A DNA stretch of 28,521 bases from a virus. This document shows positions 7,476-21,864 of this stretch, piece after piece. Each line of letters opens with the position of its first letter. Positions within the stretch are counted from its first letter, which is position 1. The stretch lies in IMG/VR virus record IMGVR_UViG_3300017991_001303, positions 1-28,521 of that record; one strand, 5' to 3'. The notes under the pieces were generated by a model that saw only the letters and a program-made list of their open reading frames with translations, was not told the DNA's origin and searched no databases. The position numbers and the translations under genes were made by a program.

Positions 7476-9905
7476 ATGTATAATGAAGAGCAGGTAAGAG
7501 AAGCAACATTAGCTTATTTTGATGGCGATGAACTCGCTACAAACGTTTTTATGACGAAATATTGTCTTCGCGACAATAAAGGAAACTATGTTGAAAAGAC
7601 CCCCGATGATATGCATCGTCGCATTGCTTCCGAGTTTGCTCGGATGGAAGATAAGTTTGGTGGAAACAAGCTTACCGAATCAGAAATCTATTCTTACTTA
7701 AAGAACTTCAAATACATTGTTCCACAGGGTTCGCCTATGATGGGGATTGGAAATAATTATGTTAATGTATCGCTTTCTAACTGTGTTGTTGTCGATAATC
7801 CACAGGATAGTATTTCATCCATTATGGACGCTGGCAAGGACATTGCTAATCTGTTCAAGCGTCGTTGTGGGGTTGGTCTTGATATTTCTGATTTGCGTCC
7901 CGAGGGTGCTCCCGTTAACAACTCTGCTCGCACTACTACTGGCGCTTGGTCTTTCGCAGACTTTTATTCTTATGTTTGTCGGATGATTGGACAGAACGGT
8001 CGTCGTGGTGCTCTTATGATTTCTATGGATGTTCGTCACCCGGACATTCGTGAGTTTGTAAGAATGAAGCACGACCTTACAAAGGTTACAGGAGCCAATG
8101 TATCCGTAAAGATTACAGATGACTTTATGGAGGCTGTGAGGGACGGAGGAGAGTTTACTCTTCGTTTCCCTGTAGATGCCGAGACGCCAACACACATTAG
8201 CACTGTGAATGCCACAGAGCTTTGGAACGATATTGTTGAGTCTGCTACAAAGACAGCAGAGCCGGGACTTCTAATGTGGGACAACATCACAAAGAACCTT
8301 CCAGCACACTCATACCCGCAGTTCCAAACAAAGACAACTAATCCCTGTGGTGAGATCCCTCTTTCTGCTTACGATTCTTGCCGTCTTATTTCTTTAAATC
8401 TAAAGCATCTTGTTCAGGATGCTTTCACAGAGAACGCTAGCTTTGACTTCAACAGACTAAAGCTGATTGCATCCGTAGGTATGCGTCTTTCCGACAACCT
8501 TGTTGAGTTGGAGTTGGAGAAGTTAGAGAACATTCGTGCTGTTGCCGATTCAGACGATGAGAAGGAACTATGGACCAAGCTTTACAATGCTGCCGCCAAG
8601 GGTCGCAGAACTGGTCTTGGTACTCACGGTCTTGCTGATGCTGTTGCACGAATGAATCTTGCTTACGATTCAAACGAGGCACTGGTTCTAATTGAGCAGA
8701 TCTACGAGACTATTAGAGACACCGCTTACACTGAAAGTTGTTACCTTGCGCAAGAGCGCGGCGTTTTCCCTGTATTTGATTGGGAGACTGAAAAGGATAA
8801 TGCTTTCATTCAGCGTCTTCCAAGTGAGATCCAAGAACTAATCCAAGCACACGGTCGTCGTAATATTTCTATTCTTACAAACGCGCCTACTGGTTCTGTT
8901 TCTATTATGTCGCAGACTTCATCTGGTTTGGAGCCCGTATTCAAGAACTACTACATTCGTCGTCGTAAACTTTCTCACAACGAGACAGATGTTACGCCTG
9001 ACTTTGTAGATGATCTGGGAGATCGTTGGTTGGAGTATAAGGTATTCCACCACAATGTTCAGGAGTGGATAAACGAGAACTTTACCAATCACAGAGAACT
9101 ACCTCAACTGCCTGATTTCTTTGTTGAGTCTGATTCTATTGATTGGTCACAGCGTGTCGCTATCCAGGCAGCAATCCAGAAGTCTATTGATCACTCTATC
9201 AGTTCTACAATCAACCTTCCAAAGGGCACAGAGCCAGAGGTTGTTGGTAGACTATACCAACAGGGCTGGGAGTTGGGTCTAAAAGGCATTACTGTATATG
9301 TTGATGGTTCCCGAACTGGCGTTCTTCTAACCGAGAACGATAAGAAGGACGAAGAAATATTCCCACAGCACCGTGCCCCCAAGCGTCCTTTGGAGTTGGA
9401 ATGCAACATCCACCACACTACCATTAAGGGCGAGAAGTGGGTTATTATGGTTGGTCTTCTAGATGGCAAGCCGTATGAGGTTATGGGAGGACTTTCAAAC
9501 CTTATTGAGATTCCGAGAGGTAAAACAAAGGGTGTCCTTGTCAAGAATCCCCGCAAGACTGTAAATTCCATTTACGACTTGCGCATTGGAACAAACGGTG
9601 ATATAGTTATCGTCAAGGATCTAGTAAAGACCTTTGATAATCCAAACCACAGTGCTTTGACGCGGATTATTTCACTTGGTTTGCGCCACGGAGCAAATAT
9701 TCAGTATGTTGTTGAGCAGCTGCAGAAGGATAAGGACTCTGATATGTTCTCATTCTCCAAGTGTATTGCTCGTATTCTCAAAAACTACATTCCTGATGGT
9801 CAGGAAGCAAGTGAGAAGACTTGCCCCGAGTGTGGCGAAGATGGTTTGGTTTATATTGAGGGATGTCAGACGTGCCAGTCATGTGGCTGGGCCCGCTGCG
9901 GATAG
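7476..9905 (+). CDS. nrdJ: Adenosylcobalamin-dependent (class II) ribonucleotide reductase
   Basis: Reduces ribonucleotides to deoxyribonucleotides using a cobalamin-generated thiyl radical, without oxygen or a small subunit. The active-site loop is NPCGE (289-293), with radical Cys291 and Glu293. Redox cysteines are C103 (SLSNC) and C302 (DSC). The spacings 103-291-302 are the same as C134-C322-C333 of Thermotoga maritima NrdJ, as I recall them. APTGSVSIM supplies the phosphate-binding loop. The C-terminus carries two zinc-ribbon-like pairs (CPEC, CQTCQSCG), as in class II enzymes that receive electrons from thioredoxin. No ATP-cone is seen at the N-terminus. At 809 aa it is a single complete chain with no intein. 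It starts 3 bp after the helicase stop, suggesting co-transcription. Confidence 0.95.
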   Translation: MYNEEQVREATLAYFDGDELATNVFMTKYCLRDNKGNYVEKTPDDMHRRIASEFARMEDKFGGNKLTESEIYSYLKNFKYIVPQGSPMMGIGNNYVNVSLSNCVVVDNPQDSISSIMDAGKDIANLFKRRCGVGLDISDLRPEGAPVNNSARTTTGAWSFADFYSYVCRMIGQNGRRGALMISMDVRHPDIREFVRMKHDLTKVTGANVSVKITDDFMEAVRDGGEFTLRFPVDAETPTHISTVNATELWNDIVESATKTAEPGLLMWDNITKNLPAHSYPQFQTKTTNPCGEIPLSAYDSCRLISLNLKHLVQDAFTENASFDFNRLKLIASVGMRLSDNLVELELEKLENIRAVADSDDEKELWTKLYNAAAKGRRTGLGTHGLADAVARMNLAYDSNEALVLIEQIYETIRDTAYTESCYLAQERGVFPVFDWETEKDNAFIQRLPSEIQELIQAHGRRNISILTNAPTGSVSIMSQTSSGLEPVFKNYYIRRRKLSHNETDVTPDFVDDLGDRWLEYKVFHHNVQEWINENFTNHRELPQLPDFFVESDSIDWSQRVAIQAAIQKSIDHSISSTINLPKGTEPEVVGRLYQQGWELGLKGITVYVDGSRTGVLLTENDKKDEEIFPQHRAPKRPLELECNIHHTTIKGEKWVIMVGLLDGKPYEVMGGLSNLIEIPRGKTKGVLVKNPRKTVNSIYDLRIGTNGDIVIVKDLVKTFDNPNHSALTRIISLGLRHGANIQYVVEQLQKDKDSDMFSFSKCIARILKNYIPDGQEASEKTCPECGEDGLVYIEGCQTCQSCGWARCG

Positions 9906-9913
9906 GAGATAAA

Positions 9914-10192
9914 ATGAACTTTGTACCAGTAAATAACTACCTTTACGTTCAAACAGTAGAGGACAATGAAACCGAAGATGTGGGTATCCTACTTCCACAG
10001 GATTACCGATCTGTTGAATCGCCGTTTGCGGTGGTAGAACTACTACAGACTCATACAACCTCAAATAATGTGATCTGGGGTGCTGAGCTTCGTTTGGTTG
10101 TGGAGGCTCATATGCTCCGAGATATTGAACACAATGGGCAAACCTTTACAGTCATTAAAGAAAACCACGTAATTGGAATTTTATCAGAATAA
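9914..10192 (+). CDS. GroES-like co-chaperonin (gp31-type)
   Basis: A 92-aa protein with the GroES plan. PVNNYLYVQTVED is the first beta strand region, comparable to KPLxDRVLVKRVE in GroES. GILLPQDY lies near the position of the family GGIVLP segment. The C-terminal half, LVVEAHMLRDIEHNGQTFTVIKENHVIGILSE read in two parts, matches the GroES ending (tEVKxDGxEYLIMREDDILAVLE pattern). Phages use such caps to fold capsid protein with host GroEL. The ATG at 9914 follows AGGAGAT closely and is preferred over an upstream in-frame start inside the RNR gene. Confidence 0.7.
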   Translation: MNFVPVNNYLYVQTVEDNETEDVGILLPQDYRSVESPFAVVELLQTHTTSNNVIWGAELRLVVEAHMLRDIEHNGQTFTVIKENHVIGILSE

Positions 10193-10195
10193 ATA

Positions 10196-10203
10196 ACTAT
10201 TTA
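10196..10203 (+). promoter_or_regulatory. ACTATTTA octamer (candidate phage promoter element), copy 1
   Basis: One of five copies in intergenic or gene-end positions in this window. It lies 40 bp before the ATG at 10244. A 5-bp hairpin (GTTGT/ACAAC, 10205-10221) follows, and then the ribosome-binding site AAAGGAG. Confidence 0.5.
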
Positions 10204-10243
10204 AGTTGTTGGATACACAACAAATTACCAAAGGAGCAGTAAA

Positions 10244-10291
10244 ATGAAACTAACCAAAGCAAGATTACAACAGATCATCAAAGAAGAGATC
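10244..10291 (+). repeat. 48-bp leader-coding repeat, copy A
   Basis: It differs from copy B (10672-10719) at only three positions, all silent. Both copies encode the same 16-residue N-terminus, while the genes differ completely after it. Confidence 0.85.
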
Positions 10292-10627
10292 GCAGCCGCA
10301 ACGGAACAAGATCCGGAAGCCAAGATTGATGAACTTATGGCCAGCGCGCTGTTTTCAAACGCAGACGAAGCAGATAAGGCAGAGGCACGCAAGATAATCC
10401 TTGACGCCTTGATGGGCCTTGAAGGCTACGGCGGCACGAAAAGGCCGGATGAAGAGTACATGGATGATGCGTTCCGCCCTTATGAAGACCTAACAAGAAG
10501 GTTAGCGCAAGCATGGCTCGGCTCGCGCCTGCTTCAACGATCTCTGCGCCACCGGTGGTTAGACGCCCTTGTCGCTTGGTCGCTCGGCCGCAAAGATTAT
10601 GAGAAAGAGCTATATCATATATCATAA
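10244..10627 (+). CDS. Small protein with KLTK-type N-terminal leader
   Basis: A 127-aa protein of unknown function. The first 16 residues, MKLTKARLQQIIKEEI, are identical to those of the next gene, while the rest is unrelated. The body is helical and charged, with an acidic middle (DELMASALFSNADEADKAEA) and a basic C-terminal part (SRLLQRSLRHRWLDAL). Similar lysine-rich K-L-T-K-x-x-L-x-x-I-I-x-E-E leaders are, from memory, frequent on otherwise unrelated proteins of marine phages; their role is not known to me. It has a good ribosome-binding site (AAAGGAG) and an ACTATTTA element upstream. Confidence 0.7.
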   Translation: MKLTKARLQQIIKEEIAAATEQDPEAKIDELMASALFSNADEADKAEARKIILDALMGLEGYGGTKRPDEEYMDDAFRPYEDLTRRLAQAWLGSRLLQRSLRHRWLDALVAWSLGRKDYEKELYHIS

Positions 10628-10642
10628 TGATCAAGATTTACA

Positions 10643-10655
10643 GCGCATGATGCGC
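10643..10655. repeat. Interrupted palindrome GCGCAT-G-ATGCGC
   Basis: Perfect 6-bp arms around one base, 17 bp before the start of the second KLTK-leader gene. It could be a small operator; no partner copy was seen. Confidence 0.35.
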
Positions 10656-10671
10656 AGTAGGAAATAACAGA

Positions 10672-10719
10672 ATGAAACTCACCAAAGCAAGATTACAGCA
10701 GATCATCAAAGAAGAGATT
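10672..10719 (+). repeat. 48-bp leader-coding repeat, copy B
   Basis: Second copy of the MKLTKARLQQIIKEEI-coding segment (see 10244-10291). The three nucleotide differences are synonymous, so the peptide is under selection or the copies recombine. Confidence 0.85.
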
Positions 10720-10989
10720 GATGCCGTTAGCGAAGCAGAAACCGATGGCGAGTTGCCGGCAAACATTATGACGGTGGATAAAATGATAGAAGAATTATCA
10801 AAGATCCCAGGCGATACACCCGTCGCCTTCTCCCACGAGTTTGGGACCATGAACGTTAAAAACATCCGGATCTATGATGATCAAATCTACAAGGAAATTT
10901 CCTACGGAGGAGACTGGCACGATCCGGAGGGCGTCGGGCCCGAGGGTACGGAGATGCCGCGCTATAAGGTTGTCGTGATAGGCGCCTAA
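10672..10989 (+). CDS. Small protein with KLTK-type N-terminal leader, second copy
   Basis: A 105-aa protein. Residues 1-16 repeat the leader of the preceding gene. The segment TVDKMIEELSKIPGDTPVAF resembles a motif found in various small phage proteins (LIEELSKLPxDxPV pattern). The last strand, YKVVVIGA, suggests a compact alpha/beta domain. The function is unknown. Ribosome-binding site AGGAAATAACAGA precedes the ATG. The sharing of only the leader suggests that it is an exchangeable tag. Confidence 0.7.
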   Translation: MKLTKARLQQIIKEEIDAVSEAETDGELPANIMTVDKMIEELSKIPGDTPVAFSHEFGTMNVKNIRIYDDQIYKEISYGGDWHDPEGVGPEGTEMPRYKVVVIGA

Positions 10990-11002
10990 TTAAAAATAAC
11001 AC

Positions 11003-11031
11003 TTGACTTGTAAGCCCGGTTATGCTACATT
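11003..11031 (+). promoter_or_regulatory. Sigma70-type promoter, possibly giving a leaderless mRNA
   Basis: TTGACT (11003-11008), a 17-bp spacer, then TACATT (11026-11031, 4 of 6). The expected transcription start, about 7 bp downstream, coincides with the ATG at 11038. No Shine-Dalgarno is visible before that ATG. Confidence 0.5.
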
Positions 11032-11049
11032 AGTAGTATGACTGGGCTT
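11012..11049 (+). other. 17-bp hairpin spanning a start codon
   Basis: Arms 11012-11028 and 11033-11049 pair over 17 bp around an ATTA loop, with three G-U pairs in RNA. The ATG at 11038 lies inside the right arm, so read-through mRNA from upstream would hide the start codon, whereas mRNA started near 11038 would not. Confidence 0.55.
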
Positions 11050-11769
11050 TCACCTATACAAATCAAACTTCCCAATGTTGTGATTGGCTGGCGGGAAGAA
11101 GCGATTACATTCGCGAACAAAAAGAACTACCATCTAATCGTCAATGATGAACAAAGACCTTTTGTTCATTTCTTTCGTTATGAAGATGTAAAAAGCAACT
11201 GGTATAACGGCATATTTGAACTTGGAATGAAATCCAAACTTCCTGTTCCGTTTGATATTCAAACTATCGGAATGGAAGACAACAAATTGAAGATTATCAC
11301 AAAAGGAAACACCAAGATTTTGATTGAGTTTGGTTTCCTTCATATTTTTGACCTTGAAAACTGTAACTTTGATGGCGTAGATCAGGTTATCAAAGATTAC
11401 ACCGTCAAGGATACCTTTGATATTACGGTAGGTTCCAAACTTGGCCACGATATTGTGATCAAGCCCCACGACACATTTGTAAAAGAGTTCAGAACCATCA
11501 GAACCAACCGAGTTGATAGAAACAAGACCGGTGAGTTCAAGGACTTTTTGGCAACAAGTGTTATTGATGCCGAGGACATCAAAAACTTTGATTTTTCCGA
11601 CACAATCGTGCGTTTGCTTTTGGAAAGAAAGATAAGGCAAATGGGATTGAAGAGAAACAACAAAGAATACCTAAAACTACAACATAGCGACCGACACATA
11701 AGCAAAAGAAACTTTTATTTCGAGACAACAGAAGATTTGGATGATAGAATAGTTCTATATGACCCGTAG
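11038..11769 (+). CDS. Conserved-type hypothetical protein
   Basis: A 243-aa protein that I cannot assign. It is of mixed alpha/beta composition, rich in Lys, Asp and Phe, with no membrane segment or clear catalytic motif. The C-terminal 60 residues are basic (RKIRQMGLKRNNKEYLKLQHSDRH, split here for description at residue 210), suggesting nucleic-acid contact. The start is unusual: the frame is closed upstream at 11011-11013, no Shine-Dalgarno is seen, and the ATG lies in a hairpin arm at the expected transcription start. It overlaps the next gene by 11 bp, so the two are probably expressed together. Confidence 0.75.
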   Translation: MTGLSPIQIKLPNVVIGWREEAITFANKKNYHLIVNDEQRPFVHFFRYEDVKSNWYNGIFELGMKSKLPVPFDIQTIGMEDNKLKIITKGNTKILIEFGFLHIFDLENCNFDGVDQVIKDYTVKDTFDITVGSKLGHDIVIKPHDTFVKEFRTIRTNRVDRNKTGEFKDFLATSVIDAEDIKNFDFSDTIVRLLLERKIRQMGLKRNNKEYLKLQHSDRHISKRNFYFETTEDLDDRIVLYDP

Positions 11770-12625
11770 CAAAGAAAACCTACCGGGGATCATCCCGGTA
11801 TCAGGAATGACTTCCGAGTTTGGTATGGAATGGGACTCATCACTAATACCTGTTGCTCCAAACTATACCGCATTAGAGTCGGCTATTTTTGAATGTATTC
11901 ACGTTGGCTGTAACTCTATTTGGATTGTCGCAAACGACGATATTGCCCCACTTATCCGCCATCGCATAGGCGAATATGCGACAGATATGCGTTCTGTGGA
12001 GCAAGGTGCGTTCAAAAACTGGGGCAGCCCCAATCATTTGGAAGTTCCCATTTATTATGTTCCTATTCACCCGAAACATAGAGATAGGGTAGATAACTAC
12101 GCTTGGTCTGCGATCTATGGCGCTAATGCATGCTTTTGGATTATGCGTATGTTCTCGCGATGGACAACACCGGCTGCTTATTATGTTTCATTTCCTTTGG
12201 GGATGCTTGATCCAAAAGAACTGCTAAAACATCGGGCAAAAGTTCAGAAAAAGAAAACATTCTACTTTTCTCACAAAGGCAAAACGGTAAGAGACGGGTA
12301 TCCTATCTCATTTGTTATGGAACCAGAAGAGTGGCGCAGAGCAAAACATACAATAACCAAAAATGCTTCGGTTTGGAAATCTACTAACGGAGAGGCGATA
12401 CCAAGGGAGAAGTTGCCGCCAGAAGAACGGTTGGTGTCTCTAAAATACAATCTTGAAGATGTGTTTGGTGGAGGACCCACAAACAACGACCAAGAGATTG
12501 AAGAGTTTTATGACTTGACTACCTGGGATGGGTATGCTACTTTACTAGGGTCGCCGCTCGGCAAGCGCATGAAGCGACCATCGAAAACACTAATGTACAG
12601 AAAAGGAAAAGTTAATGACGGATAA
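11759..12625 (+). CDS. Nucleotidyltransferase-like protein (putative)
   Basis: A 288-aa protein. The N-terminal 80 residues resemble the NTP-binding half of sugar-phosphate nucleotidyltransferases: GIIPVSGMTSEFG (10-22), then PVAPNYTALESAIFECIHVGCNSIWIV, where a helix and a strand IWIV follow the AGC-type turn, then DDIAPLIRHRIGE. The usual GxGTRLxPLT signature is altered, so catalysis is uncertain. The C-terminal part is basic and carries no recognised domain. It overlaps the preceding gene by 11 bp and the first dnaE fragment by 11 bp, placing it in the polymerase operon. A non-catalytic relative is possible. Confidence 0.55.
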   Translation: MTRSKENLPGIIPVSGMTSEFGMEWDSSLIPVAPNYTALESAIFECIHVGCNSIWIVANDDIAPLIRHRIGEYATDMRSVEQGAFKNWGSPNHLEVPIYYVPIHPKHRDRVDNYAWSAIYGANACFWIMRMFSRWTTPAAYYVSFPLGMLDPKELLKHRAKVQKKKTFYFSHKGKTVRDGYPISFVMEPEEWRRAKHTITKNASVWKSTNGEAIPREKLPPEERLVSLKYNLEDVFGGGPTNNDQEIEEFYDLTTWDGYATLLGSPLGKRMKRPSKTLMYRKGKVNDG

Positions 12626-13472
12626 AAAGATACCTTTTGTTGGACTTCACGCGCATTCTGTTGCGGGGTCTATCTTTGACGCAATAGGATACCCAGACGA
12701 ACATATGGACTGGGCTTATTCAAACGGTTGTGAAGCTCTCGCACTGACGGACCACGGAAATATGAATGGTTTTTCACATCAGTTTCTTCATTGGAAGAAG
12801 ATGAAGGCAGAAGGCAAGAACTTCAAGCCTATCTTTGGTGTTGAAGCTTATTTCCTACCTTCTATCGAGGAGTGGAGAGGAGAATACAATAGAATCAAGG
12901 AAGACGCTAAACTCGCAAAGTCTCTTGCGAAGAGCGATACTTCCGGTGCTACCGTCGAGGATGAGAAAGAGTCAAAGAAGGCTATCAAGTCTATCCTAAA
13001 CCGTCGTCGTCATTTGGTTCTTTTGGCTCAAAACCAAACAGGACTAAACAACCTTTTCAAGCTTATTTCCGAGTCTTACAACGAAGAGAACTATTACCGT
13101 TATCCGCGTGTTGATTACAAGATGCTGGACAAGTATTCAGAAGGCATTATCGCTGCGTCTGCTTGTTTGACTGGTGATAGTATCTTGGATACTTCTATGG
13201 GACAGATGAGACTGGATGATGTAGTCAGAAACTATAAACAAGGCAACGAACTTTTTGTGCTCTCTTATAGCGAAAAAGAACAACGATTAGTGTATCGTCG
13301 TGTTCTATGGGGAGATTTAACAAGAAAGAAAGCCAAAATTATTCGTATCAAAACCAAAGATGGCAAAAGTGTCCGTCTCACACCAGATCACAAGGTTTTT
13401 ACAGATCAAGGGTGGATGGAAGCCGGAGACCTCAAAAAACACAAAAACATTAAGATTTTGTCTTTAAAATAA
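12615..13472 (+). CDS. dnaE: DNA polymerase III alpha, fragment 1: PHP domain part plus N-intein
   Basis: Residues 1-183 are the first part of a DnaE PHP domain: metal-ligand motif GLHAHS (10-15), LTDHGNM (about 44-50), FGVEAYF (about 75-81), and GIIAASA at the junction. From Cys184 the chain becomes a canonical N-intein of 102 aa. It has a CLTGDS start (block A), a block B TPDHKVF, and WMEAGDLKKHKNIKILSLK at the end, closest in style to the NrdA/NrdJ split inteins of environmental phages. It ends at a stop, so activity needs protein trans-splicing with the C-intein at 14451. In the extein lysine is mostly AAG (about 16 AAG to 3 AAA); in the intein it is mostly AAA (11 to 3). This shows a different origin. 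Confidence 0.93.
   Translation: MTDKKIPFVGLHAHSVAGSIFDAIGYPDEHMDWAYSNGCEALALTDHGNMNGFSHQFLHWKKMKAEGKNFKPIFGVEAYFLPSIEEWRGEYNRIKEDAKLAKSLAKSDTSGATVEDEKESKKAIKSILNRRRHLVLLAQNQTGLNNLFKLISESYNEENYYRYPRVDYKMLDKYSEGIIAASACLTGDSILDTSMGQMRLDDVVRNYKQGNELFVLSYSEKEQRLVYRRVLWGDLTRKKAKIIRIKTKDGKSVRLTPDHKVFTDQGWMEAGDLKKHKNIKILSLK
13164..13469 (+). other. N-terminal half of split intein 1 (dnaE, PHP insertion site)
   Basis: Codons 184-285 of fragment 1. Cys1, block A CLTGDS and block B with the conserved Thr and His (TPDH) are all present, so the acyl-shift chemistry should work. It is inserted between the extein residues ...ASA and CLGG. Confidence 0.9.
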
Positions 13473-13479
13473 GGTATAA

Positions 13480-13540
13480 ACCCCCCCGAGAATACTATTT
13501 ATTGTGAGGGGGGTCTTTACTTCCCCAATCCTCACAGAGG
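13480..13540 (+). promoter_or_regulatory. Leader of HEG 1 with mutually exclusive hairpins
   Basis: ACCCCCC (13480-13486) can pair with GGGGGGT (13508-13514), enclosing ACTATTTA. Alternatively GTGAGG (13504-13509) plus GGGG pairs with CCCC and CCTCAC (13530-13535). A third pairing, CCTC (13530-13533) with GAGG (13537-13540), would hide the ribosome-binding site. The pairing chosen should depend on whether the mRNA starts upstream or at the octamer. Confidence 0.5.
13494..13501 (+). promoter_or_regulatory. ACTATTTA octamer, copy 2 (HEG 1)
   Basis: It lies in the loop of the C-run/G-run hairpin, 47 bp before the ATG at 13549. See the other copies at 10196, 18002, 21835 and 28469. Confidence 0.55.
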
Positions 13541-13548
13541 AAACCAAA

Positions 13549-14454
13549 ATGGCCCATAAATACCACAATTTATCTAAACAAGAAAAATATATGATACTTT
13601 GCACTTATGTTGATGAAGCATTAATAAAACAAAAATTAGAAGATAACCATAGTTTTGGTATGATAAGGGATTGGATTATAAGAGATTATCCGGAGGCTAT
13701 CAAGGATGAACGATTATTTTGGCTAAATACACTGCAAACTACTCGTTCGATTTTTAAATCACAGGGACTTACATGTAATTTAAAGAATTACAACACTATG
13801 CCTCAAAACTGGAAACTTCAATATAGGTTCCCAAAAGATTATACATTAGAGCAGATTAGTTTGATTAATGCCGAAAAATCAAGAAAAGGCCAGATGAAAA
13901 CAATAGAACAACGAAAAAAGAACGGAACACTGGGTAATCCCAAGTTTAAACGAAAAGATAGCCCATTATGTAAAGAATACTACACTTCTCGGGGTATTTC
14001 GCTCTATGAGGCGACAAAGCAAATTAAAGAAATTTGCTCTTCTGGAGGAATAGCGGCCTGCAAGTCGTTCTCTGATAATAATCGCCTATCCAGTGTAGAA
14101 TGCAAGATTGCCGCCATATTAGATGAAATAGGTGTTTCATACTCGCAACAGTTACAGATTAGAATACCTGAAAACAATAGGTTATTTGGCAATTTATCGT
14201 ATATTTATGATTTTTTGATTGGAGATCTTATAATAGAGGTTAATGGGACTTATTTTCACGGAGATAATAGATTTTTTAAAGCAAGCGATATAATTTTAGG
14301 CCAACCAGCAGAAGAAGTGTGGAAAAAGGATCAACATAAACTTGACATAGCGAAACAAATGGGTTTTAATGTACTAACACTTTGGGAATATGATATAAAC
14401 TACAACGAAGAAGCAATCAAACAACAAATACAAGAAATTTTGGTGGAACAATGA
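13549..14454 (+). CDS. Free-standing homing endonuclease, Vsr-like (EDxHD type)
   Basis: A 301-aa nuclease lying between the two halves of split intein 1. The C-terminal third has the Vsr/EDxHD fold pattern: E184 ([11 protein letters not shown]), strand YIYDF with D221, [12 protein letters not shown] (E230, N232, H237), then [26 protein letters not shown]. The N-terminal part is basic and helical and probably reads DNA. This family is known from fractured genes in environmental phage sequences and from I-Bth0305I. The ATG at 13549 is chosen because AGAGG precedes it. Its stop overlaps the C-intein start (ATGA), so the downstream dnaE fragment is translationally coupled to it. It probably cuts intein-less dnaE alleles at the PHP site. 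Confidence 0.87.
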
Positions 14455-14573
14455 ATAATTATAAATTTGTAGAGATCGAAGAAATAGAGGAATTAGAAGA
14501 GATTGAGGACACTTATGATATAACAGTCGAAGACACACATAATTTTTTTGCCAACGGACTGTTGGTCCATAAT
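14451..14573 (+). other. C-terminal half of split intein 1
   Basis: 41 residues with block F (THNFFANG) and block G (LLVHN), with the +1 Cys coded at 14574-14576. The resemblance to the NrdJ-1-type C-intein is close. The acidic stretch [13 protein letters not shown] may pair with the basic N-half by charge. Confidence 0.9.
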
Positions 14574-15605
14574 TGTTTGGGTGGTCCGTATGCCGGCAAC
14601 TACTGGGCAAACCGCGAGGAAGGCCCCGAGGCTGTCCGAGAGGCAATGCGCGAGACCACAAGAGAGTTTGTGAAGATCTTTGGGGATCGTTGGCACGGCG
14701 AGCTTCAATGGAACAATATTCCAGAGCAGCACGAGCTAAATCAGTACATTATTGAAATGCATCACGAGTTTGGTATTCCACTTATTTCAACTGCCGACTC
14801 TCATTATCCTAATCCGGACGCTTGGAAGGACCGAGAGCTTTACAAGCGCCTTGGTTGGCTTGGTAAGGGCAAGCCTGATTGGATGGAGAATACCGATCTT
14901 CCGGCTGGTGTTGAAGAGATTGGATATGAGATTTATCCTAAGAATGGAAACCAAATGTGGGATTCCTACAAGTATTACTCAAAGACCGCTGGCGTAGAGT
15001 ATGACGATCAGTTGGTAATGGACTCAATCACACGAACTCACGACATTGCTTTCAAGATGATTGAGGACTTTGTTCCTGATACAACTGTAAAGCTTCCTGA
15101 CTTTGTGGTTCCTGCGGGGCATACTGCTACAGAGGCACTTGTAAACTATGCTTTGGAAGGTTTGCGTAATCGTGGGCTCCACGAGAACAAAGAATACACT
15201 GACCGTCTAAAGATGGAGTTGGATGTTATTGATGACCGTGGTTTCAGCAAGTATTTCTTGACCATGAAAGCGATCTCCGACAAGGCAAATGAAGTTCAGT
15301 TGACTGGCCCCGGTCGTGGGTCCGCTGCTGGTTCTTTGGTTGCTTATGTTCTCGGGATCACACAGATTGACCCTATCAAGTATGGTCTTCTTTTTGAGAG
15401 GTTTATGACAAAGGACGCAGGCTCTGGTTACATTACTGACAATGGAAGAGCACTGGAAGAGGTTGCCGCCATCCAGCTGGACACTGATAGCGGTAGGACT
15501 ATTACTATCACTCCGGATATGGAAGTGAAAGTTAAACGAGATAATAAAGTTTTTTATGCCCTCGCCAAAAACCTACAGGTAGGCGACGAGATAATGAGCG
15601 TGTAA
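14451..15605 (+). CDS. dnaE: DNA polymerase III alpha, fragment 2: C-intein, rest of PHP and first palm part
   Basis: Residues 1-41 are a C-intein with [17 protein letters not shown] and the terminal LLVHN, followed by Cys42 as the +1 nucleophile. Splicing would give ...[18 protein letters not shown]. The extein then supplies the rest of the PHP domain (STADSHYPN, about residue 113) and the start of the palm, with [17 protein letters not shown] (about 286-302) and [13 protein letters not shown]. At Gly324 the sequence leaves DnaE homology and becomes a Hint-like segment of 61 aa ending at the stop. The catalytic Asp pair is therefore on the third fragment. The first splice looks fully competent; the second does not. 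Confidence 0.92.
15420..15602 (+). other. Degenerate Hint/N-intein-like segment at the second dnaE break
   Basis: 61 residues after [25 protein letters not shown] resembles intein block B but has Met where His is expected, and [11 protein letters not shown] resembles the usual LKVGDEI end. No block A with Cys1 is visible; a Ser at the second position is the only candidate. Lysine codons are all AAA (4 of 4), unlike the surrounding dnaE. Confidence 0.6.
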
Positions 15606-15747
15606 AAACCAAAAGTTCGTTGAGGCGTTAGAAAACAACTTGACGACACAAAACATTTATGAGACACTATTCCCATATCGCACATTTAGTTCAGTAAAGA
15701 ACCAACGAAGAAAGATATTACAAAGGATGGTAAATGAAAATCACTAA
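15598..15747 (+). pseudogene. 3' remnant of a homing endonuclease between dnaE fragments 2 and 3
   Basis: An open segment of about 49 codons with no start codon, ending in TAA at 15747. It encodes NIYETLFPYRTFSSVKNQRR in its middle, a pattern like the YRT-x-SS-x-K DNA-binding helices at the ends of phage homing endonucleases. It overlaps the start of dnaE fragment 3 by 14 bp, just as the intact HEGs overlap their downstream exons (ATGA at 14451, 8 bp at 19018). The N-terminal and catalytic parts are gone. The match is by eye and rests on a short stretch. Confidence 0.5.
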
Positions 15748-17884
15748 CATAACACACTTGCCAGTGGCTAAAAGAAACCTAATCCCAGTCCCAGCAGGAC
15801 AGAAGAAGGAGCTGGAGGGTATATTTCTAAATAATCCAAAAGATACCAATATGCCTGATATTGACTATGATGTGAGCAATCCAATGGAACTAAAAGAGCG
15901 TCTTATGGAGGATTGGGGCAAGAACTCTGTTATTCCAATCTCAAACTGGAACACTCTACAGTTGAAGTCTCTAATCAAGGACATTTCAAAGTTCTATGGT
16001 GTGCCTTTCATTGAGGTAAATAAAGTTACATCTCAGATGATCTTTGAGGCTACTCCTGCCGCAAAGGCAAGGCACGGCATCAAGGCTGGTGTTTATACTC
16101 CAACTTGGGAAGAGGTTATGGAACTTTCTCCTTCTCTTCGTGGCTTCCTTGTAAAGCACCCTCACATCAAAACGCACGTTGAGGCGCTTGTAGGTCAGGT
16201 AAGGAGTTGTTCCCGCCACGCTGGTGGCGTTTTGATTGCGGACGATCTAAACGAGCATATGCCGATTATTAGTTCTGGTGGTGTTCGGCAGTCTCCGTGG
16301 GCAGAAGGTCAGAACGTTCGTCATTTGGAGCCGCTTGGGTTTATTAAGTTTGACCTTTTGGGGCTCTCCACACTTCGGATGATTGAAGACGCAATCCGTC
16401 ACATCCTTGTTCGGCATTACAATAATCCAGAGCCGACGTTCAAGGATGTTCAGGATTTCTACAACAAGCATCTTCACCCGGACGTTATTGACTTTGACGA
16501 TCAGGAAGTGTATAAGAATGTTTTCCAGAAAGGAAACTTCGCCGGTATTTTTCAGTTTACCGAGGGGCGAGCACAGGAATTCTGTGCAAACGCACAGCCA
16601 AAGTCTTTGGTTGATATTTCCGCCATTACTTCCATTTATCGTCCCGGGCCTCTATCGGCAAATGTTCACGAGCAATACATTCAAGCTAAGGAGAACGCAG
16701 ACGGTATTGATTATATGAATGATCATATCAAGGAAGTTACGCAAGAAACTTACGGGTTCCTTATCTTTCAGGAGCAGATTGCCTTACTTGCTCACAAGTT
16801 GGGTAAGGACGTATCTCTTGATGAAGGCAACCTTCTTCGCAAGGTTCTTACCAAGAAGGGAACCGGCAAGGGTCACGAAGTAAAGATGAAAATCCACGAC
16901 AAGTTTATTGAGGGTTGTGTTGAAAAGGGCATTCGTAGGCACGAAGCAGAAAGTATGTGGGAGCGATTTGAGTATTTCTCCGGATACGGCTTCAACAAGT
17001 CTCACGCTATTTCTTATTCCGCGATTTCTTTCCAGTGCGCTTGGCTTTGGAACTATTACCCGATTGAGTGGATGGCTTCTTTCTTGGACAAGGAGCCCGA
17101 GAAGCGAAAGGAAAAGGCAATCAATATTGCAAAGGCAAATGGCTTCTTTATCGAAAAGGCAGACGTAAACCGTTCTTCGTTTGAGTGGGAGATTGATCCA
17201 AACGATGATCGCAAGCTTATTCAGCCTCTTGCGGGCCTAAAGGGACTTGGTGACGCAGCAATCCAGCAGATTGTTGATAACCGTCCGTTTGCGAATATCG
17301 AAGAGTTTTTATTCCACGATGATATTGTTTACAGCAAACTAAACAAGAAGGCTCTTGATGTGCTAGTTCGGTCGGGAGCGATGAATAGTTTAATGGATGA
17401 TCGCTTCACTGGTCGCAAGCATTTCTGGTCTGCTGTCGCAGTAGATAGAGTTTACAACCGCAAGAAGTTCAATGAGAACATTGAGAAGTATAGAGATGAA
17501 GGGGACTTCACTCCAGAGGAAGAAATCGAGAATCTAACAACAATCACAGGTATTTTCCCTATGTCTCTGGTCGTAACGCCAGAGGTTCGGCAAAAGTTGG
17601 ATGAGTATTACATTCCGGCGATTTCAGATTACGATCCAGAGTTGGGACTTGTATGGTTTATTCCACGCGAGATTATTCGCAAGAAAACAAAAAGAGGAAA
17701 GCCTTATTGGATTGTGGAAGTTATTGATTCGAATTCCGTCTTGACACGCTTCCGTTGTTGGGGTATTGTTGAGGGCAAGGACAGGATCCACTTGAATCGT
17801 CCTTATATGTGTCGCCCACAATATGATCCCACTTGGGGATTCTCAGTTCGATCAATTAAAAAGCAGCTGCGCCTTTTGGGATGA
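15734..17884 (+). CDS. dnaE: DNA polymerase III alpha, fragment 3: catalytic palm, fingers and C-terminal domains
   Basis: A 716-aa protein carrying most of the polymerase. The catalytic carboxylates are PDIDYD (41-46, the Asp pair equivalent to E. coli D401 and D403) and D207 in FIKFDLLGL (the D555 equivalent). SRHAGG (160-165) belongs to the nucleotide-binding fingers. It continues with YRPGPL, QETYGFLIFQEQI, LLRKVLTKKG and YFSGYGFNKSHAISYS, then an HhH region (LAGLKGLGDAAIQQI) and a C-terminal OB-like part. Residues 1-37 (MKITNITHLPVAKRNLIPVP and on) look like a C-intein start but lack a terminal His-Asn and nucleophile at a convincing place. The start at 15734 follows AAAGGATGGTAA. Confidence 0.92.
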   Translation: MKITNITHLPVAKRNLIPVPAGQKKELEGIFLNNPKDTNMPDIDYDVSNPMELKERLMEDWGKNSVIPISNWNTLQLKSLIKDISKFYGVPFIEVNKVTSQMIFEATPAAKARHGIKAGVYTPTWEEVMELSPSLRGFLVKHPHIKTHVEALVGQVRSCSRHAGGVLIADDLNEHMPIISSGGVRQSPWAEGQNVRHLEPLGFIKFDLLGLSTLRMIEDAIRHILVRHYNNPEPTFKDVQDFYNKHLHPDVIDFDDQEVYKNVFQKGNFAGIFQFTEGRAQEFCANAQPKSLVDISAITSIYRPGPLSANVHEQYIQAKENADGIDYMNDHIKEVTQETYGFLIFQEQIALLAHKLGKDVSLDEGNLLRKVLTKKGTGKGHEVKMKIHDKFIEGCVEKGIRRHEAESMWERFEYFSGYGFNKSHAISYSAISFQCAWLWNYYPIEWMASFLDKEPEKRKEKAINIAKANGFFIEKADVNRSSFEWEIDPNDDRKLIQPLAGLKGLGDAAIQQIVDNRPFANIEEFLFHDDIVYSKLNKKALDVLVRSGAMNSLMDDRFTGRKHFWSAVAVDRVYNRKKFNENIEKYRDEGDFTPEEEIENLTTITGIFPMSLVVTPEVRQKLDEYYIPAISDYDPELGLVWFIPREIIRKKTKRGKPYWIVEVIDSNSVLTRFRCWGIVEGKDRIHLNRPYMCRPQYDPTWGFSVRSIKKQLRLLG

Positions 17885-17934
17885 AATAAACCCTGAGTAT
17901 ATCAGGATAGCTAAGAAAATGTTGGGAGTAGAAA

Positions 17935-18000
17935 ATGATAGCAGATATAATAGTAGGTTTGTCTTTTGGTGATGAAGGCAAGGCTTTTTACTTTTTGTAA
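17935..18000 (+). pseudogene. Truncated 5' end of purA, interrupted at the P-loop
   Basis: Codes MIADIIVGLSFGDEGK followed by five foreign residues (AFYFL) and a stop. The first 16 residues match the start of adenylosuccinate synthetase, including the catalytic GDEGK loop. Homology stops right after the Lys codon at 17980-17982. It keeps its own ribosome-binding site and start, so a 21-aa peptide may still be made. It is the relic of the gene that the HEG 2 cassette entered; the complete purA starts at 19018. Confidence 0.8.
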
Positions 18001-18033
18001 AACTATTTATTTATGAATGGAGAAAATACAAAA
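17993..18033 (+). promoter_or_regulatory. Leader of HEG 2 with possible RBS-proximal hairpin
   Basis: TTTTGTA (17993-17999) can pair with TACAAAA (18027-18033), which abuts the start codon. The ACTATTTA octamer and the ribosome-binding site GGAG lie between the arms. The stem is AT-rich, so it is weaker than at the other two HEGs. Confidence 0.35.
18002..18009 (+). promoter_or_regulatory. ACTATTTA octamer, copy 3 (HEG 2)
   Basis: It lies one base after the stop of the purA stub and 23 bp before the ATG at 18033. Confidence 0.55.
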
Positions 18034-19025
18034 TGTATAAAGTAACTTGCTTAATTTGTAATTATAGCTGCGGTCTGAACTACTTGGGGACTCATTTAAA
18101 AAAAACACACTCAACAAGTTTAAAAAACTATTATGATGAGTACTTGAAAGAAGAGGGCGACGGGCAATGTAAGATGTGCGCTGAGTCCACCAAATTTATC
18201 AGCTTGAAGATAGGATATAGAAAAACATGTTCTGCCAGTTGCGCGCACAAATGTCGCTCTCAGAGGTTATATGAAGAACACGGGGTCACAAACCAATTCC
18301 AGCTAAAGAAAGTTAAAGAGAAGTCTAAAAAAACTTTATTAGACAAGTACGGAGTAGGTAATATATCAGAACTAGCGGAGACAAAAGAAAAAAAGAAGGC
18401 AACCTGTTTGTTGAATTATGGAGTTGAACACCCTCTTCAAAGTAAGGCAATAAGGGACAAGGCGATAGATACGATAAGAGAGAAGTATTGTAATCCTAAT
18501 GCCGTAAACATAGGACAAATAGCGTCCGTTAAGGCTCAAATAAGAAAAACAAAAAAAGAAAGATATGGTGATGAACATTACACCAATAGGCAAAAAGCAG
18601 AAGAGACAATGCTTCATCGTTATGGCACCAAGCAAATTATGGATATAGACGAGTATGCTGAAAAGGCGTCGATGAATGGTGGCGGCCGCGCAAAGACTAG
18701 AAAATACAGTACAATATTTGGTGATATAATCAATATACAAGGTTCCTACGAAGAGAGGTTTGTCAAGTACTGCGAAAACAATAATTACAGGGTTTTGAAC
18801 GGCCCAACTATTGATTATGTTTTTGAAGGACAAAAAAGAAAATATAGGGTTGACTTTGAGGTAGAAAAAGGGGACAATAAAGTTCTGGTTGAGATCAAGA
18901 GCAGTTATTGGTATAAAGAACACCAAAAACAAGTTGAAGCCAAAAAGAAATATGCTGAGGCATATTGTAAAAAAAAGAATTTATCGTATCAACTATTAGT
19001 AGAAAGGTTTAGTTTACATGATTAA
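18033..19025 (+). CDS. Putative homing endonuclease, zinc finger plus YG-repeats plus PD-(D/E)XK-like nuclease
   Basis: A 330-aa protein inserted between a purA stub and a complete purA. The N-terminus has a C2H2-like finger (C6, C9, H21, H26) and a second Cys cluster (CKMC, CSASC). The middle holds four spaced repeats of the type [KNR]YG-x4-6 (KYGVGNISE, NYGVEHPLQ, RYGDEHYTN, RYGTKQIMD) seen in phage mobile endonucleases. The C-terminus has a PD-(D/E)XK-like core: YRVDFEVEKG with D274, then VLVEIKSSYW with E287-x-K289. The 3' end overlaps the intact purA start by 8 bp. It uses almost only AAA for Lys, like the 5' half of that purA. The likely target is the P-loop codons of purA. Confidence 0.78.
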   Translation: MYKVTCLICNYSCGLNYLGTHLKKTHSTSLKNYYDEYLKEEGDGQCKMCAESTKFISLKIGYRKTCSASCAHKCRSQRLYEEHGVTNQFQLKKVKEKSKKTLLDKYGVGNISELAETKEKKKATCLLNYGVEHPLQSKAIRDKAIDTIREKYCNPNAVNIGQIASVKAQIRKTKKERYGDEHYTNRQKAEETMLHRYGTKQIMDIDEYAEKASMNGGGRAKTRKYSTIFGDIINIQGSYEERFVKYCENNNYRVLNGPTIDYVFEGQKRKYRVDFEVEKGDNKVLVEIKSSYWYKEHQKQVEAKKKYAEAYCKKKNLSYQLLVERFSLHD

Positions 19026-20031
19026 AGCAGCGGATATGGTCATCGGCCTGGCCATGGGGGATGAATCCAAAGGAAAAGTTGCCTACCATCTGGTCAAAAA
19101 CGGAGACTATACTCATGTGATTCGTTTTTGCGGAGGAGCAAATGCAGGACACACCATATACCACAATGGCAACAAAATCGTTACACACTCAATACCGGTA
19201 GGCGTTATACATGGAGTTAAGTCAATTATAGGCTCAGGGTGCGTGTTAAACCCAGAAGCGTTTTTTGCAGAACTCAAGGAGCTTAATGAAGCGGGCATTG
19301 ACACAGAAGACAAAGTCTTCATCGCTGCAAATGCTCATATCACAACAGACTGTCACTTAGAAGAAGACAGAAAAGATACCAAAATTGGCACAACCAAAAG
19401 AGGCATTGGACCGACCTATCGTGATAAATACGCTAGAGAAGGCTTATTAGCCAAAGATGTGCCCGAACTAGCACCATATATAATCGACCTTTATGAAGAA
19501 TTACACAACAATCAGCAGGGTGACACTGTGATCCTCTGTGAGGGCGCACAAGGCTTTGGATTGGACATTGACTGGGGAGATTACCCTTATGTTACTTCAA
19601 GCCACTGTACGACCGCTGGGGCGCTCCTAAACGGCATCCCTCCGCAGGCTGTCCGAAAGGTTTACGGTATCACGAAGGCTTACGATACTTACGTGGGAGC
19701 AAAGAACTTTCACGGTGAAGGAAGAGTATTTGATTTGCTACAAAGCCTAGGAAAGGAGTTTGGTGCGACCACTGGTCGTCCCCGTCAGTGTAACTGGCTT
19801 AATGTTCAGGCCCTAAAGAAGGCAGTAGATATCAATGGCGTTACAGATGTGATTATCAACAAGGTAGATATTCTTCGACAAACTGGCGCTTGGAACTTGC
19901 GTTCTTCTGACAACAATGCTATCATGCTCAAGTTGGGTTCAGAGGTAGCCTGGAAGCAATACATCAGACGATTCCTCAGTGACAACAGAAATATCAATGT
20001 TGTCTTTTCAGAATCACCAGAAAGGATTTAA
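19018..20031 (+). CDS. purA: Adenylosuccinate synthetase, phage type (mosaic gene)
   Basis: Condenses IMP with aspartate using GTP, the first step from IMP to AMP. The P-loop is MGDESKGK (13-20) with catalytic Asp15; GGANAGHT (39-46) supplies catalytic His45. Later motifs are SSHCTTAGALLNG (as HCTTAGALL here), KAYDTYVG and GATTGRPRQCNWLN. Length (337 aa) matches the short archaeal/phage forms and not the 430-aa bacterial form. Phage PurZ enzymes, which make the 2-aminoadenine precursor, are reported to lack the catalytic Asp; here it is kept. Lys codons shift sharply: 11 AAA to 2 AAG up to about 19457, then 0 to 9 from 19657. So the 5' half probably came in with HEG 2. It overlaps that gene by 8 bp. 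Confidence 0.88.
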   Translation: MIKAADMVIGLAMGDESKGKVAYHLVKNGDYTHVIRFCGGANAGHTIYHNGNKIVTHSIPVGVIHGVKSIIGSGCVLNPEAFFAELKELNEAGIDTEDKVFIAANAHITTDCHLEEDRKDTKIGTTKRGIGPTYRDKYAREGLLAKDVPELAPYIIDLYEELHNNQQGDTVILCEGAQGFGLDIDWGDYPYVTSSHCTTAGALLNGIPPQAVRKVYGITKAYDTYVGAKNFHGEGRVFDLLQSLGKEFGATTGRPRQCNWLNVQALKKAVDINGVTDVIINKVDILRQTGAWNLRSSDNNAIMLKLGSEVAWKQYIRRFLSDNRNINVVFSESPERI

Positions 20032-20032
20032 A

Positions 20033-20497
20033 ATGATTTTACAGTATCACATGATTCACGATAATGTTCACCCCCCGACGCGATCTAATCCGTCAGATGC
20101 AGGTTTGGATCTGCGATTTAGCCCAGACGATGCTACTGTGCGTGGCCTTCGAATTGATCCGGGCGAAAGCAAATTACTGCCTACTGGTTTGCGGTTTGCT
20201 ATTCCTCATGGTTATATGATGGAAATCAAGAACCGATCTAGTATGGCTGCAAAGCGTCAGCTTCTGGTTGGCGCTTGTGTTGTGGACTCTGGCTATGATG
20301 GTGAGGTTTTTGTCAATCTTCACAACATTGGTAAGTACTGGCAGACTATCGAGCCCGGGGACAAGATTGCACAGGCTGTTGTTGTTCCGGTTGTTCACGC
20401 TCGCTTTGTAGCGTCTGAGGATCCCAACATTTATGATTGGCATCCGATTACCATCTCTAACCGGGGTGATGGTGCCCTAGGAAGCACAGGTAAGTAA
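20033..20497 (+). CDS. dut: dUTPase (deoxyuridine 5'-triphosphate nucleotidohydrolase)
   Basis: Hydrolyses dUTP to dUMP, keeping uracil out of DNA and feeding ThyX. All five trimeric dUTPase motifs are present in a 154-aa chain: SDAGLDL (21-27), NRSS (67-70), VVDSGYDGEV (83-92), PGDKIAQ (108-114) and RGDGALGSTG (144-153). ATG 20033 follows GAAAGGATTTAA; the frame extends upstream only within purA. It abuts purA and overlaps the ClpP-like gene by one base (TAATG). Confidence 0.95.
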   Translation: MILQYHMIHDNVHPPTRSNPSDAGLDLRFSPDDATVRGLRIDPGESKLLPTGLRFAIPHGYMMEIKNRSSMAAKRQLLVGACVVDSGYDGEVFVNLHNIGKYWQTIEPGDKIAQAVVVPVVHARFVASEDPNIYDWHPITISNRGDGALGSTGK

Positions 20498-21063
20498 TGT
20501 CGTCATCACTACCACTACCAAAGGATCGTTGTTTATACCTGCCTGATCAGGTTACACAGGAGTCAATGAACAAACTAACAAAGAGCATTGTTGAAATCAA
20601 TGCCGATGATGCACTACTAAAGAAGGTGTATGCTATCCACGGATTAGAGTATACACCGAAGCCTATTCAGATTTACATTGACTCTTACGGCGGCGCAGTA
20701 TATCAGTGCTTTGGTTTGCTTGGAGTTATGGAGAAGTCTGAAACTCCAATCCATACGATTGTAACTGGTGCTGCTATGTCTTGTGGCTTTATGATTTTGA
20801 TCTCAGGGCATAAGCGGTTTGGTTACAGACTATCAACCCCGCTTTACCATCAGGTTTCCTCTGGGTTGTTCTATGGTAAGGTTCAGGATATGGAAGAGCA
20901 ACTACAAGAGACAAAGCGCCTTCAAAAGTTGATTGAGGAGATTACTTTGGACAAAACCAACATCTCAAAGAAGAAGTTGGCTGATGTTCTCAAAAACAAG
21001 GTTGATTGGTATATGTCTGCCGAAGAGGCACTAAAGTTGGGCGTCATTGACGCAATCATATAA
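20497..21063 (+). CDS. ClpP-like serine protease
   Basis: A 188-aa member of the ClpP/crotonase fold. The triad can be placed as Ser95 (GAAMSCGF), His118 (LYHQVSSG) and Asp170 (NKVDWYMSAEEA). The oxyanion-strand motif IDSYGGAVYQ (61-70) matches ClpP NSPGGSV. The C-terminal SAEEALKLGVIDAI is the usual family ending (SAxEAxxYGLID). It may process phage or host proteins together with host Clp ATPases, or act alone; the target is unknown. Its location among nucleotide genes, with TAATG coupling to dut, suggests early or middle expression. Confidence 0.88.
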   Translation: MSSSLPLPKDRCLYLPDQVTQESMNKLTKSIVEINADDALLKKVYAIHGLEYTPKPIQIYIDSYGGAVYQCFGLLGVMEKSETPIHTIVTGAAMSCGFMILISGHKRFGYRLSTPLYHQVSSGLFYGKVQDMEEQLQETKRLQKLIEEITLDKTNISKKKLADVLKNKVDWYMSAEEALKLGVIDAII

Positions 21064-21073
21064 AGGATTATAA

Positions 21074-21793: not shown

Positions 21794-21817
21794 AACTTTA
21801 TTTTATTTATACCGGGT

Positions 21818-21864
21818 ATTAGGGAATGTTCCATACTATTTAGTATATAAGGGAGTTTCCTAAT
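21818..21864 (+). promoter_or_regulatory. Leader of HEG 3: hairpin that covers the start codon
   Basis: ATTAGGGAA (21818-21826) pairs over 9 bp (one G-U) with TTTCCTAAT (21856-21864), which contains the first two bases of the ATG at 21863. Between the arms lie an ACTATTTA octamer within a dyad (ATACTA-TT-TAGTAT) and the ribosome-binding site GGGAG (21851-21855). Confidence 0.55.
21835..21842 (+). promoter_or_regulatory. ACTATTTA octamer, copy 4 (HEG 3)
   Basis: It lies 20 bp before the ATG at 21863, in the loop of the leader hairpin. An mRNA starting a few bases downstream would lack the left arm. Confidence 0.55.

Follow-up and report, generated by a model that had tools for sequence, protein, structure and literature searches.

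A phage dnaE gene interrupted at two sites: a canonical split intein and a putative split Hint module without splicing residues

The window analyzed here, which is the whole 28,521-base virus record IMGVR_UViG_3300017991_001303, carries a dnaE gene spread over three open reading frames (ORFs), designated F1, F2 and F3, and its two breaks appear to be of different kinds. We consider it probable, at roughly 65%, that the products of F1 and F2 are joined by trans-splicing, and that those of F2 and F3 remain unspliced and are docked to one another by a split Hint module that is dead for splicing. An initial annotation had described the three-ORF layout and a canonical split intein at the first break, both of which are borne out here by the ORF map, the Pfam domains and the intein residues. 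It had taken the second break as a plain one, and in this it needs correction, since the second break holds an independent insertion that appears to be Hint-derived and lacks splicing residues.

Organization of the dnaE gene

The three ORFs lie on the plus strand at positions 12615-13472 (F1, 285 amino acids), 14451-15605 (F2, 384 amino acids) and 15734-17884 (F3, 716 amino acids). Pfam assigns the PHP domain to F1, divides the DNA_pol3_alpha (palm) domain between F2 and F3, and places the finger domain and HHH_6 in F3 (Table 1). The earlier statements that the first break divides the PHP domain and that dnaE is the gene affected are supported, and the gp41-, NrdJ- and GuaB-type genes are intact as had been claimed, the DnaB-type, ribonucleotide reductase and IMPDH genes each being a single ORF. 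For the comparison with homologues 80 loci were kept of 222 relatives, some of them near-duplicates; here and below, many loci are near-duplicates and the locus counts are not independent. One of these loci, L001, is a second record of the same phage, matching window positions 9727-22507 at 99.7% nucleotide identity with zero differences within 12600-17900.

A canonical split intein in the PHP domain

At the first break (site 1) the residue 1 nucleophile (Cys184) and the block B motif TPDH are found in F1, and the terminal LVHN followed by the +1 residue Cys42 in F2. The N-half aligns with solved inteins from their residue 2 (best E value 3.4e-6) and enters the PF14890 profile at position 5, and the C-half aligns with the ends of solved inteins (best E value 4.7e-6). 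Trans-splicing activity at this site is predicted from the sequence together with membership of this family, and it would restore ASA-CLGG in the PHP domain. The initial annotation had proposed a search for intein-free homologues, and 61 of the 62 loci that span site 1 do read (A/S)SACLGG without interruption, the sole exception being L001, which is the same phage. The site 1 insert is likewise absent from L002, whose dnaE is 94.5% identical to that of the window; the 168 nt to the left of the site are identical in the two, and on the right side the first difference comes after 8 nt.

A Vsr-like homing endonuclease had been proposed to lie between the intein halves. A nuclease-like ORF does lie there (13504-14454) and is probably a homing nuclease, although its nuclease match is weak (DUF559, E value 0.055, under the cut-off) and its other matches are to two unnamed PHROGs (phrog_22677, 6.5e-9; phrog_22215, 1.1e-3). 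A search with the C-intein region returned 74 loci, among which L184, taken from the L001 contig, alone matched the intein and the PHP flank together. In 13 other loci with matches reaching site 1 the C-inteins precede different sequences, several of them of ribonucleotide reductase type. The intein insertion at the PHP site thus appears to be unique to this phage among the sequences searched. In one of the 13 loci (L246, near 4001-4108 on a 309-kb contig) the C-intein, with HN and then CIIFQEQ, precedes DnaE finger-like sequence, which is a different site of a phage dnaE.

A second insertion in front of the catalytic motif

In uninterrupted relatives residue 323 of F2 joins residue 38 of F3 directly, as a pattern match shows for 75 of the 79 spanned loci and inspection by eye for L076; the loci not joined at this site are L001 and L081, both from this phage, and L049. 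At the second break (site 2) the window thus has extra sequence just before the motif PDIDYD, consisting of 61 residues that end F2 and 37 residues that head F3, with a left border that is uncertain by a few residues. These are referred to below as the N-tail and the C-tail. The N-tail resembles intein block B and the strand that follows it, minus the first hairpin, and matches the Pfam family Intein_splicing (PF14890) over profile positions 49-93 of 155 with an E value of 0.006, below the cut-off. Intein_splicing matches were found in five of eight N-tails and begin at profile positions 38-49 of 155, so that this site has no block A and therefore no residue 1.

Two other loci, L049 and L084, carry both tails of the window type at the same site, the window being 48% and 65% identical to L049 over stretches that include the flanks, and L086 also has a tail there, with a different gap. 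There is no Cys in the tails of the window, L049 or L084, and a single internal one in L086. In the order window, L049, L084 and L086, the position of the block B His is occupied by Met, Val, Leu and Thr, and the C-tails end in FLNN, QVRN, FLRN and IIKN. The Asn is therefore kept in four of four window-type C-tails; the residue before it is Asn, Arg, Arg and Lys, never His, and the residue after it is Pro, Thr, Pro and Glu. Conventional splicing at site 2 is unlikely on these grounds. Since site 2 is without splicing residues, two polypeptides would be expected, one in which F1 and F2 are joined and a separate F3.

Nuclease genes occupy the gap in several of these relatives. The gap ORF of L049 matches LAGLIDADG_3 (4.8e-14), that of L084 is its homologue, and L086 has a different nuclease ORF (PF05367, 2.3e-5, below the cut-off; phrog_1271, HNH endonuclease, 1e-17). 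What is left in the window gap is a remnant of about 40 amino acids that is similar to the C-termini of the L049 and L084 gap ORFs (65% over 40 amino acids, 70% over 37 amino acids). Some relatives thus have LAGLIDADG or HNH-type nuclease genes in their gap, which gives site 2 the form of a mobile-type insertion at a conserved host motif. Scans with insert queries for further window-type copies returned contigs already known, together with one more of the L084 type, L090.

Similar split insertions in gut-type phages

Four distant tails used as search seeds returned 111 loci, of which 80 were kept, each with a match that covers the tail and reaches query residue 84 of 87 or beyond. We call these loci gut-type, a label taken from named or annotated records (BS-TP1, MT835494 and Rikenellaceae metagenome-assembled genomes (MAGs)) and not from the sampling sites of the IMG/VR contigs or of the window. 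The gut-type DnaE proteins of L087 and L088 are 23-32% identical to that of the window and are split at the same point, and Bacteroides phage BS-TP1 (L094) is a named, isolated example. As a test independent of tail position, a query made of the insert only returned 57 loci, and all 47 of those newly fetched encode the DnaE motif RFLxPE/DR. The family phrog_13169 ("DNA polymerase", 463 positions) matches window F2 residues 237-381 at the end of its profile (326-460, 1.3e-19), so such proteins are already in databases with the Hint part unnamed. Bacterial genomes gave six matches, two over the tail (Rikenellaceae MAG contigs L178 and L179) and four over 17 flank residues only.

The gut-type N-tails have invariant Thr, Arg and Glu columns and two invariant Asp columns. 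Most gut-type C-tails end in GSLP, and a conserved terminal Asn was not found among 31 of them. The gap between the halves was classified in the 72 gut-type loci with both fragments placed. It holds a gene for a Dda-like helicase in 40, a helicase plus an HNH gene in 4, an HNH gene in 7, another gene in 2, and no gene was found in the remaining 19, which keep the split across a gap of less than 160 nt. The helicase gene thus lies between both DnaE genes in BS-TP1 and in 43 other gut-type loci (44 of 72, four with the added HNH gene).

In some gut-type loci the C-tail forms an ORF apart from the polymerase core (L095, L113, L115, L125, L126, L148, L150, L155 and L173, with L304 added by eye; L095 has ALP in place of GSLP). 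The core resumes 1-8 nt past the stop, and an HNH-type gene often lies upstream. A GTG start option is present in L150, L155 and L173, and no usual start codon is obvious in some of the others; reinitiation, a frameshift or a free C-tail peptide may account for these loci. The dnaE genes of Bacillus phage KLEB27-3 (L092) and Rossellomorea phage phiT1 (L093) have their splits elsewhere, further along the gene; an HNH gene or a 49-amino acid ORF separates the parts, and no Hint tails are visible.

Relationship of the site 2 insertion to the Hint fold

When a profile of 31 gut-type rows was compared with 177,635 PDB sequences, six matches resulted, of which the top five were inteins (E values 0.014-0.15, aligned from chain residue 69-80), some of the five being identified as inteins only through Foldseek results. 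Intein_splicing was the commonest Pfam family, matching 21 of the 31 rows (best 1.5e-4), followed by DrmE_C (PF24957, the C-terminal domain of the DISARM protein DrmE), which matched 15 (best 1.8e-4, below the cut-off where shown) and which possibly reflects a related beta fold.

In one locus, L162, both tails are encoded by one uninterrupted ORF. An AlphaFold model of this protein, built from a 74-row alignment, shows the insert as beta strands and one helix, with C-half and N-half united in a single beta domain; pLDDT is 84-98 in the 10-residue blocks from 131 to 230 and 69 in block 231-240. Among the best 50 of 194 Foldseek matches to the model, rows 1-19 were DnaE or PolC, and rows 20-50 were all inteins or hedgehog proteins (E values 2.7e-3 to 0.18). 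Among the matches listed by VIA, inteins or hedgehog proteins filled rows 17-50 of 50 at Z scores of 4.2-7.1, a range too low to stand on Z alone. The VIA alignments to gp41-1, Npu DnaE and MsmDnaB begin at residue 29-52 and finish at least 12 residues before the listed chain length. The end of window F2, modeled unmodified with AlphaFold from an alignment that contained gut-type rows, found inteins or hedgehog proteins from Foldseek rank 11 on (rmsd 1.4-2.1 over 33-43 columns, probability 0.60-1.00, E values 0.26-5.9). Taken as models, these results support a Hint fold for the site 2 insertion.

The contiguous DnaE ORF of L162 ends early, near 3400-3460, relative to L087, and the contig may carry an indel; the tail fusion comes from this single contig. 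The search for further contiguous copies used one protein as the query and reaches close relatives only. Among the alignments, MAFFT misplaced the split fragments of alignment A4, to which a bridging row was added, and in alignment A5 the first residues of most C-tail rows stand too far to the left; alignment A8, whose C-tail rows are out of place, was set aside.

Selection on the tails and recent gain in the window

Among 33 close gut-type pairs, which are not independent, the N-tail had a pN of 0.169 and a pS of 0.778, compared with 0.068 and 0.802 in the flanking DnaE sequence, and among 25 close pairs the C-tail had values of 0.298 and 0.791, compared with 0.102 and 0.808 in the DnaE sequence that follows it; synonymous sites in these pairs are near saturation. 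Both tails appear to be under purifying selection.

Because the 94.5% identical dnaE of L002 has neither insertion, both interruptions appear to be recent arrivals in the dnaE gene of the window. Identity to L002 dips at site 2 to 71% in one 60-nt bin (73% against L063), with 96 and 98% in the bins directly next to it, in a comparison in which the joined window sequence depends on the chosen cut point. The changed flank (RFM...TNMPDIDYDV) resembles that of L049. Low identity to L002 is also seen at the 5' end (bins of 63% and 85%) and near the 3' end (83-85%), which means that homing does not account for every dip. The simplest account of the sequence at site 2 would be a recent gain by co-conversion from a donor like L049 or L084, followed by loss of the nuclease.

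A possible docking function, and the alternatives

We propose that the canonical split intein would join F1 and F2, and that F2 and F3 would carry the two halves of a trimmed Hint domain that lacks the first hairpin and residue 1, the block B His, and the C-terminal pair of His-Asn and +1 residue. Because these splicing residues are lost, no peptide-bond chemistry is expected at site 2. The halves would instead fold up with each other as a stable beta domain immediately ahead of the catalytic aspartates, clasping the two parts of the palm non-covalently. On this reading the halves would bind in trans, and their binding would matter for the polymerase. The module would spread by way of homing endonucleases sitting in the gap, and in the window it would have entered a naive dnaE recently, the nuclease having since been lost except for its last 40 or so codons. 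To a more general proposal we give even odds, namely that there are mobile "docking inteins", split Hint modules without a splicing site that are still site-specific and associated with homing, that divide the replicative polymerase gene beside its catalytic motif and render this break tolerable by clasping the two pieces, and that have given rise to a permanent two-subunit DnaE in many gut-type phages.

Inteins are thought to persist through self-removal. If our explanation is right, a Hint module that is retained in the product and holds the enzyme halves together would represent a different route to harmlessness for a mobile element, and a path by which a selfish element becomes a permanent interface between subunits. 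Such a module would also be a natural splicing-free protein clasp and would explain a large set of phages with a replicase in two genes. A splicing-dead split Hint module at a split phage DnaE was not found among the titles and abstracts listed by the literature searches, a coverage outside which most subscription papers lie.

Several observations weigh against this explanation. Sequence E values for single tails are weak and under the Pfam cut-offs, DrmE_C matches seven of eight tails and Intein_splicing only five of the same eight, and the tails of L086 and L098 had no intein-family match in that comparison. The C-tail alone found no intein among the PDB sequences, giving one antibody match at an E value of 0.72. 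The Foldseek E values of the window tail all exceed 0.2, VIA Z scores below 8 can reflect a common arrangement, and the contiguous form is represented by one copy only, on the 6.5-kb metagenome contig of L162. The Asn kept at the intein-like end of the four window-type C-tails makes residual chemistry possible. The strongest counter-observation is that in 9 gut-type loci a stop ends the C-tail ORF immediately behind GSLP(D) and the core resumes in another frame (64 are in frame and L161 is unclassified); the C-half is possibly a free peptide in these loci, and docking as drawn could therefore not hold there.

The tails might be roleless debris of a decayed split intein, and the polymerase parts might associate only by way of the palm surface, as happens in other genes-in-pieces. 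The dnaE genes of KLEB27-3 and phiT1, divided elsewhere with no Hint tails to be seen, would fit such an association, as would the ten loci in which the C-tail is a separate mini-ORF and the faster evolution of the tails relative to the flanking DnaE. We nevertheless think debris unlikely, because the same halves are kept open across divergent phages at a pN/pS of about 0.2-0.4, even where the gap is empty, and because the L162 model has a coherent, high-confidence fold.

Also unlikely, and in our judgment slightly less probable than debris, is that site 2 is an unconventional active split intein, a short Hint domain that either uses a non-standard nucleophile for splicing or achieves cleavage through Asn cyclization. 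The Hint fold in the models would accommodate this, the Asn at the block G-like end of all four window-type C-tails (next to Thr in L049) would supply a reactive residue, and recent entry into a naive dnaE implies that the insertion was tolerated immediately. An active element of this kind would nevertheless have to work with block A and residue 1 missing, with Met, Val, Leu or Thr in place of the block B His, and with no His before the C-tail Asn and Pro, Thr, Pro or Glu after it, and the gut-type C-tails do not conserve a terminal Asn at all.

Joining of the pieces at the RNA or translation level, by an intron, bypass or frameshift, might be read from the stop and frame change at the boundary of C-tail and core in some gut-type loci, but it is very improbable given gaps that range from an overlap to 2.5 kb with unrelated genes inside, tails that finish in normal stops, C-tails that begin with ATG (GTG in L049), and a search of the window and nine loci that gave no Rfam match at gathering scores. 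On the same Rfam result an intron at site 2 was rejected. A plain break or an assembly error at site 2 was also rejected, as other loci carry this insertion at the same position and L001 is identical over this region.

Comparison with known systems

Split inteins in phage polymerases, and genes split by endonucleases, are already in the literature. Dassa et al. reportedly described in 2009 phage fractured genes in which split inteins are accompanied by free-standing homing endonucleases. Site 1 resembles these in having intein halves on two ORFs, a nuclease-like ORF between them and a phage replication gene as host, and it adds a new example to the fractured genes already known. It differs in that the host gene is dnaE, interrupted in its PHP domain, and in that the same gene carries a second, non-canonical Hint insertion. 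In the genes-in-pieces ribonucleotide reductase of phage Aeh1, a homing endonuclease splits the enzyme gene and the parts function without splicing; we know of no Hint-derived module at that break. The split DnaE intein of cyanobacteria is active, and its insertion site and host differ from those of the window. Like the window gene, the cyanobacterial gene encodes a protein of the DnaE family split by a natural split intein (PMC2664965).

Jumbo phage MIJ3 has a PolB gene divided by a split intein and an HNH endonuclease, with recognizable splicing blocks that include F and G (PMC6892783). The likeness lies in a phage DNA polymerase spread over two ORFs around an endonuclease; the MIJ3 enzyme, however, is of family B and is described there as having splicing blocks, whereas site 2 is without block A and the catalytic residues. 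Another report (PMC12707363) describes cysteine-less split inteins of PolB genes that do splice and that keep Ser or Thr at both position 1 and position +1. These share with site 2 a polymerase host gene and the lack of Cys at the splice points, and differ from it in that site 2 is without block A.

Feature coordinates and neighboring genes

Table 1. Features of the dnaE region, in window coordinates
Feature	Position	Strand	Basis
DnaE fragment 1 N-extein, residues 1-183, most of PHP domain	12615..13163	+	PF02811 PHP, E 1.3e-28; F1 1-187 aligned with uninterrupted relatives
Site 1 N-intein, Cys184 to end of F1 (102 aa), block B TPDH	13164..13469	+	phmmer against solved inteins from residue 2, best 3.4e-6; PF14890 profile 5-91
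Putative homing nuclease ORF (316 aa) between site 1 halves	13504..14454	+	position; DUF559 E 0.055; phrog_22677 6.5e-9, phrog_22215 1.1e-3
Site 1 C-intein (41 aa), ending ...ANGLLVHN, +1 Cys42	14451..14573	+	PF14890 profile 118-155, E 3.8e-12; solved inteins 4.7e-6
DnaE fragment 2 extein, residues 42-323, remaining PHP and first palm part	14574..15419	+	PF07733, E 8.1e-28; contiguous with F1 and F3 in relatives
Site 2 N-tail, F2 residues 324-384, putative Hint N-half from after block A	15420..15602	+	PF14890, AlphaFold and Foldseek; absent from uninterrupted relatives
Putative LAGLIDADG-type homing endonuclease remnant, C-terminal end, ~40 aa	15607..15726	+	similarity to gap ORFs of L049 and L084
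Site 2 C-tail, F3 residues 1-37, putative Hint C-half, MKITNIT...GIFLNNPKD	15734..15844	+	absent from uninterrupted relatives; conserved in L049 and L084
DnaE fragment 3, residues 38-716, catalytic PDIDYD motif, thumb/fingers, HHH	15845..17884	+	PF07733, PF17657, PF14579

Several mobile nucleases of the window are seemingly absent from L002. The ORF at 18033-19025, just after dnaE, has a DUF7487 and a TnsA-like N domain and is probably another homing nuclease; L002 has about 0.46 kb at this place, compared with 1.55 kb in the window. A GIY-YIG endonuclease ORF (21863-22675) adjoins Thy1, in an interval of about 0.5 kb in L002 and 1.2 kb in the window. The 5'-truncated ORF at 3-947 has a family A DNA polymerase domain, and the phage may carry both PolA- and DnaE-type polymerases. 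Two adjacent small ORFs, at 10244-10627 and 10672-10989, have the common start MKLTKARLQQIIKEEI and then diverge.

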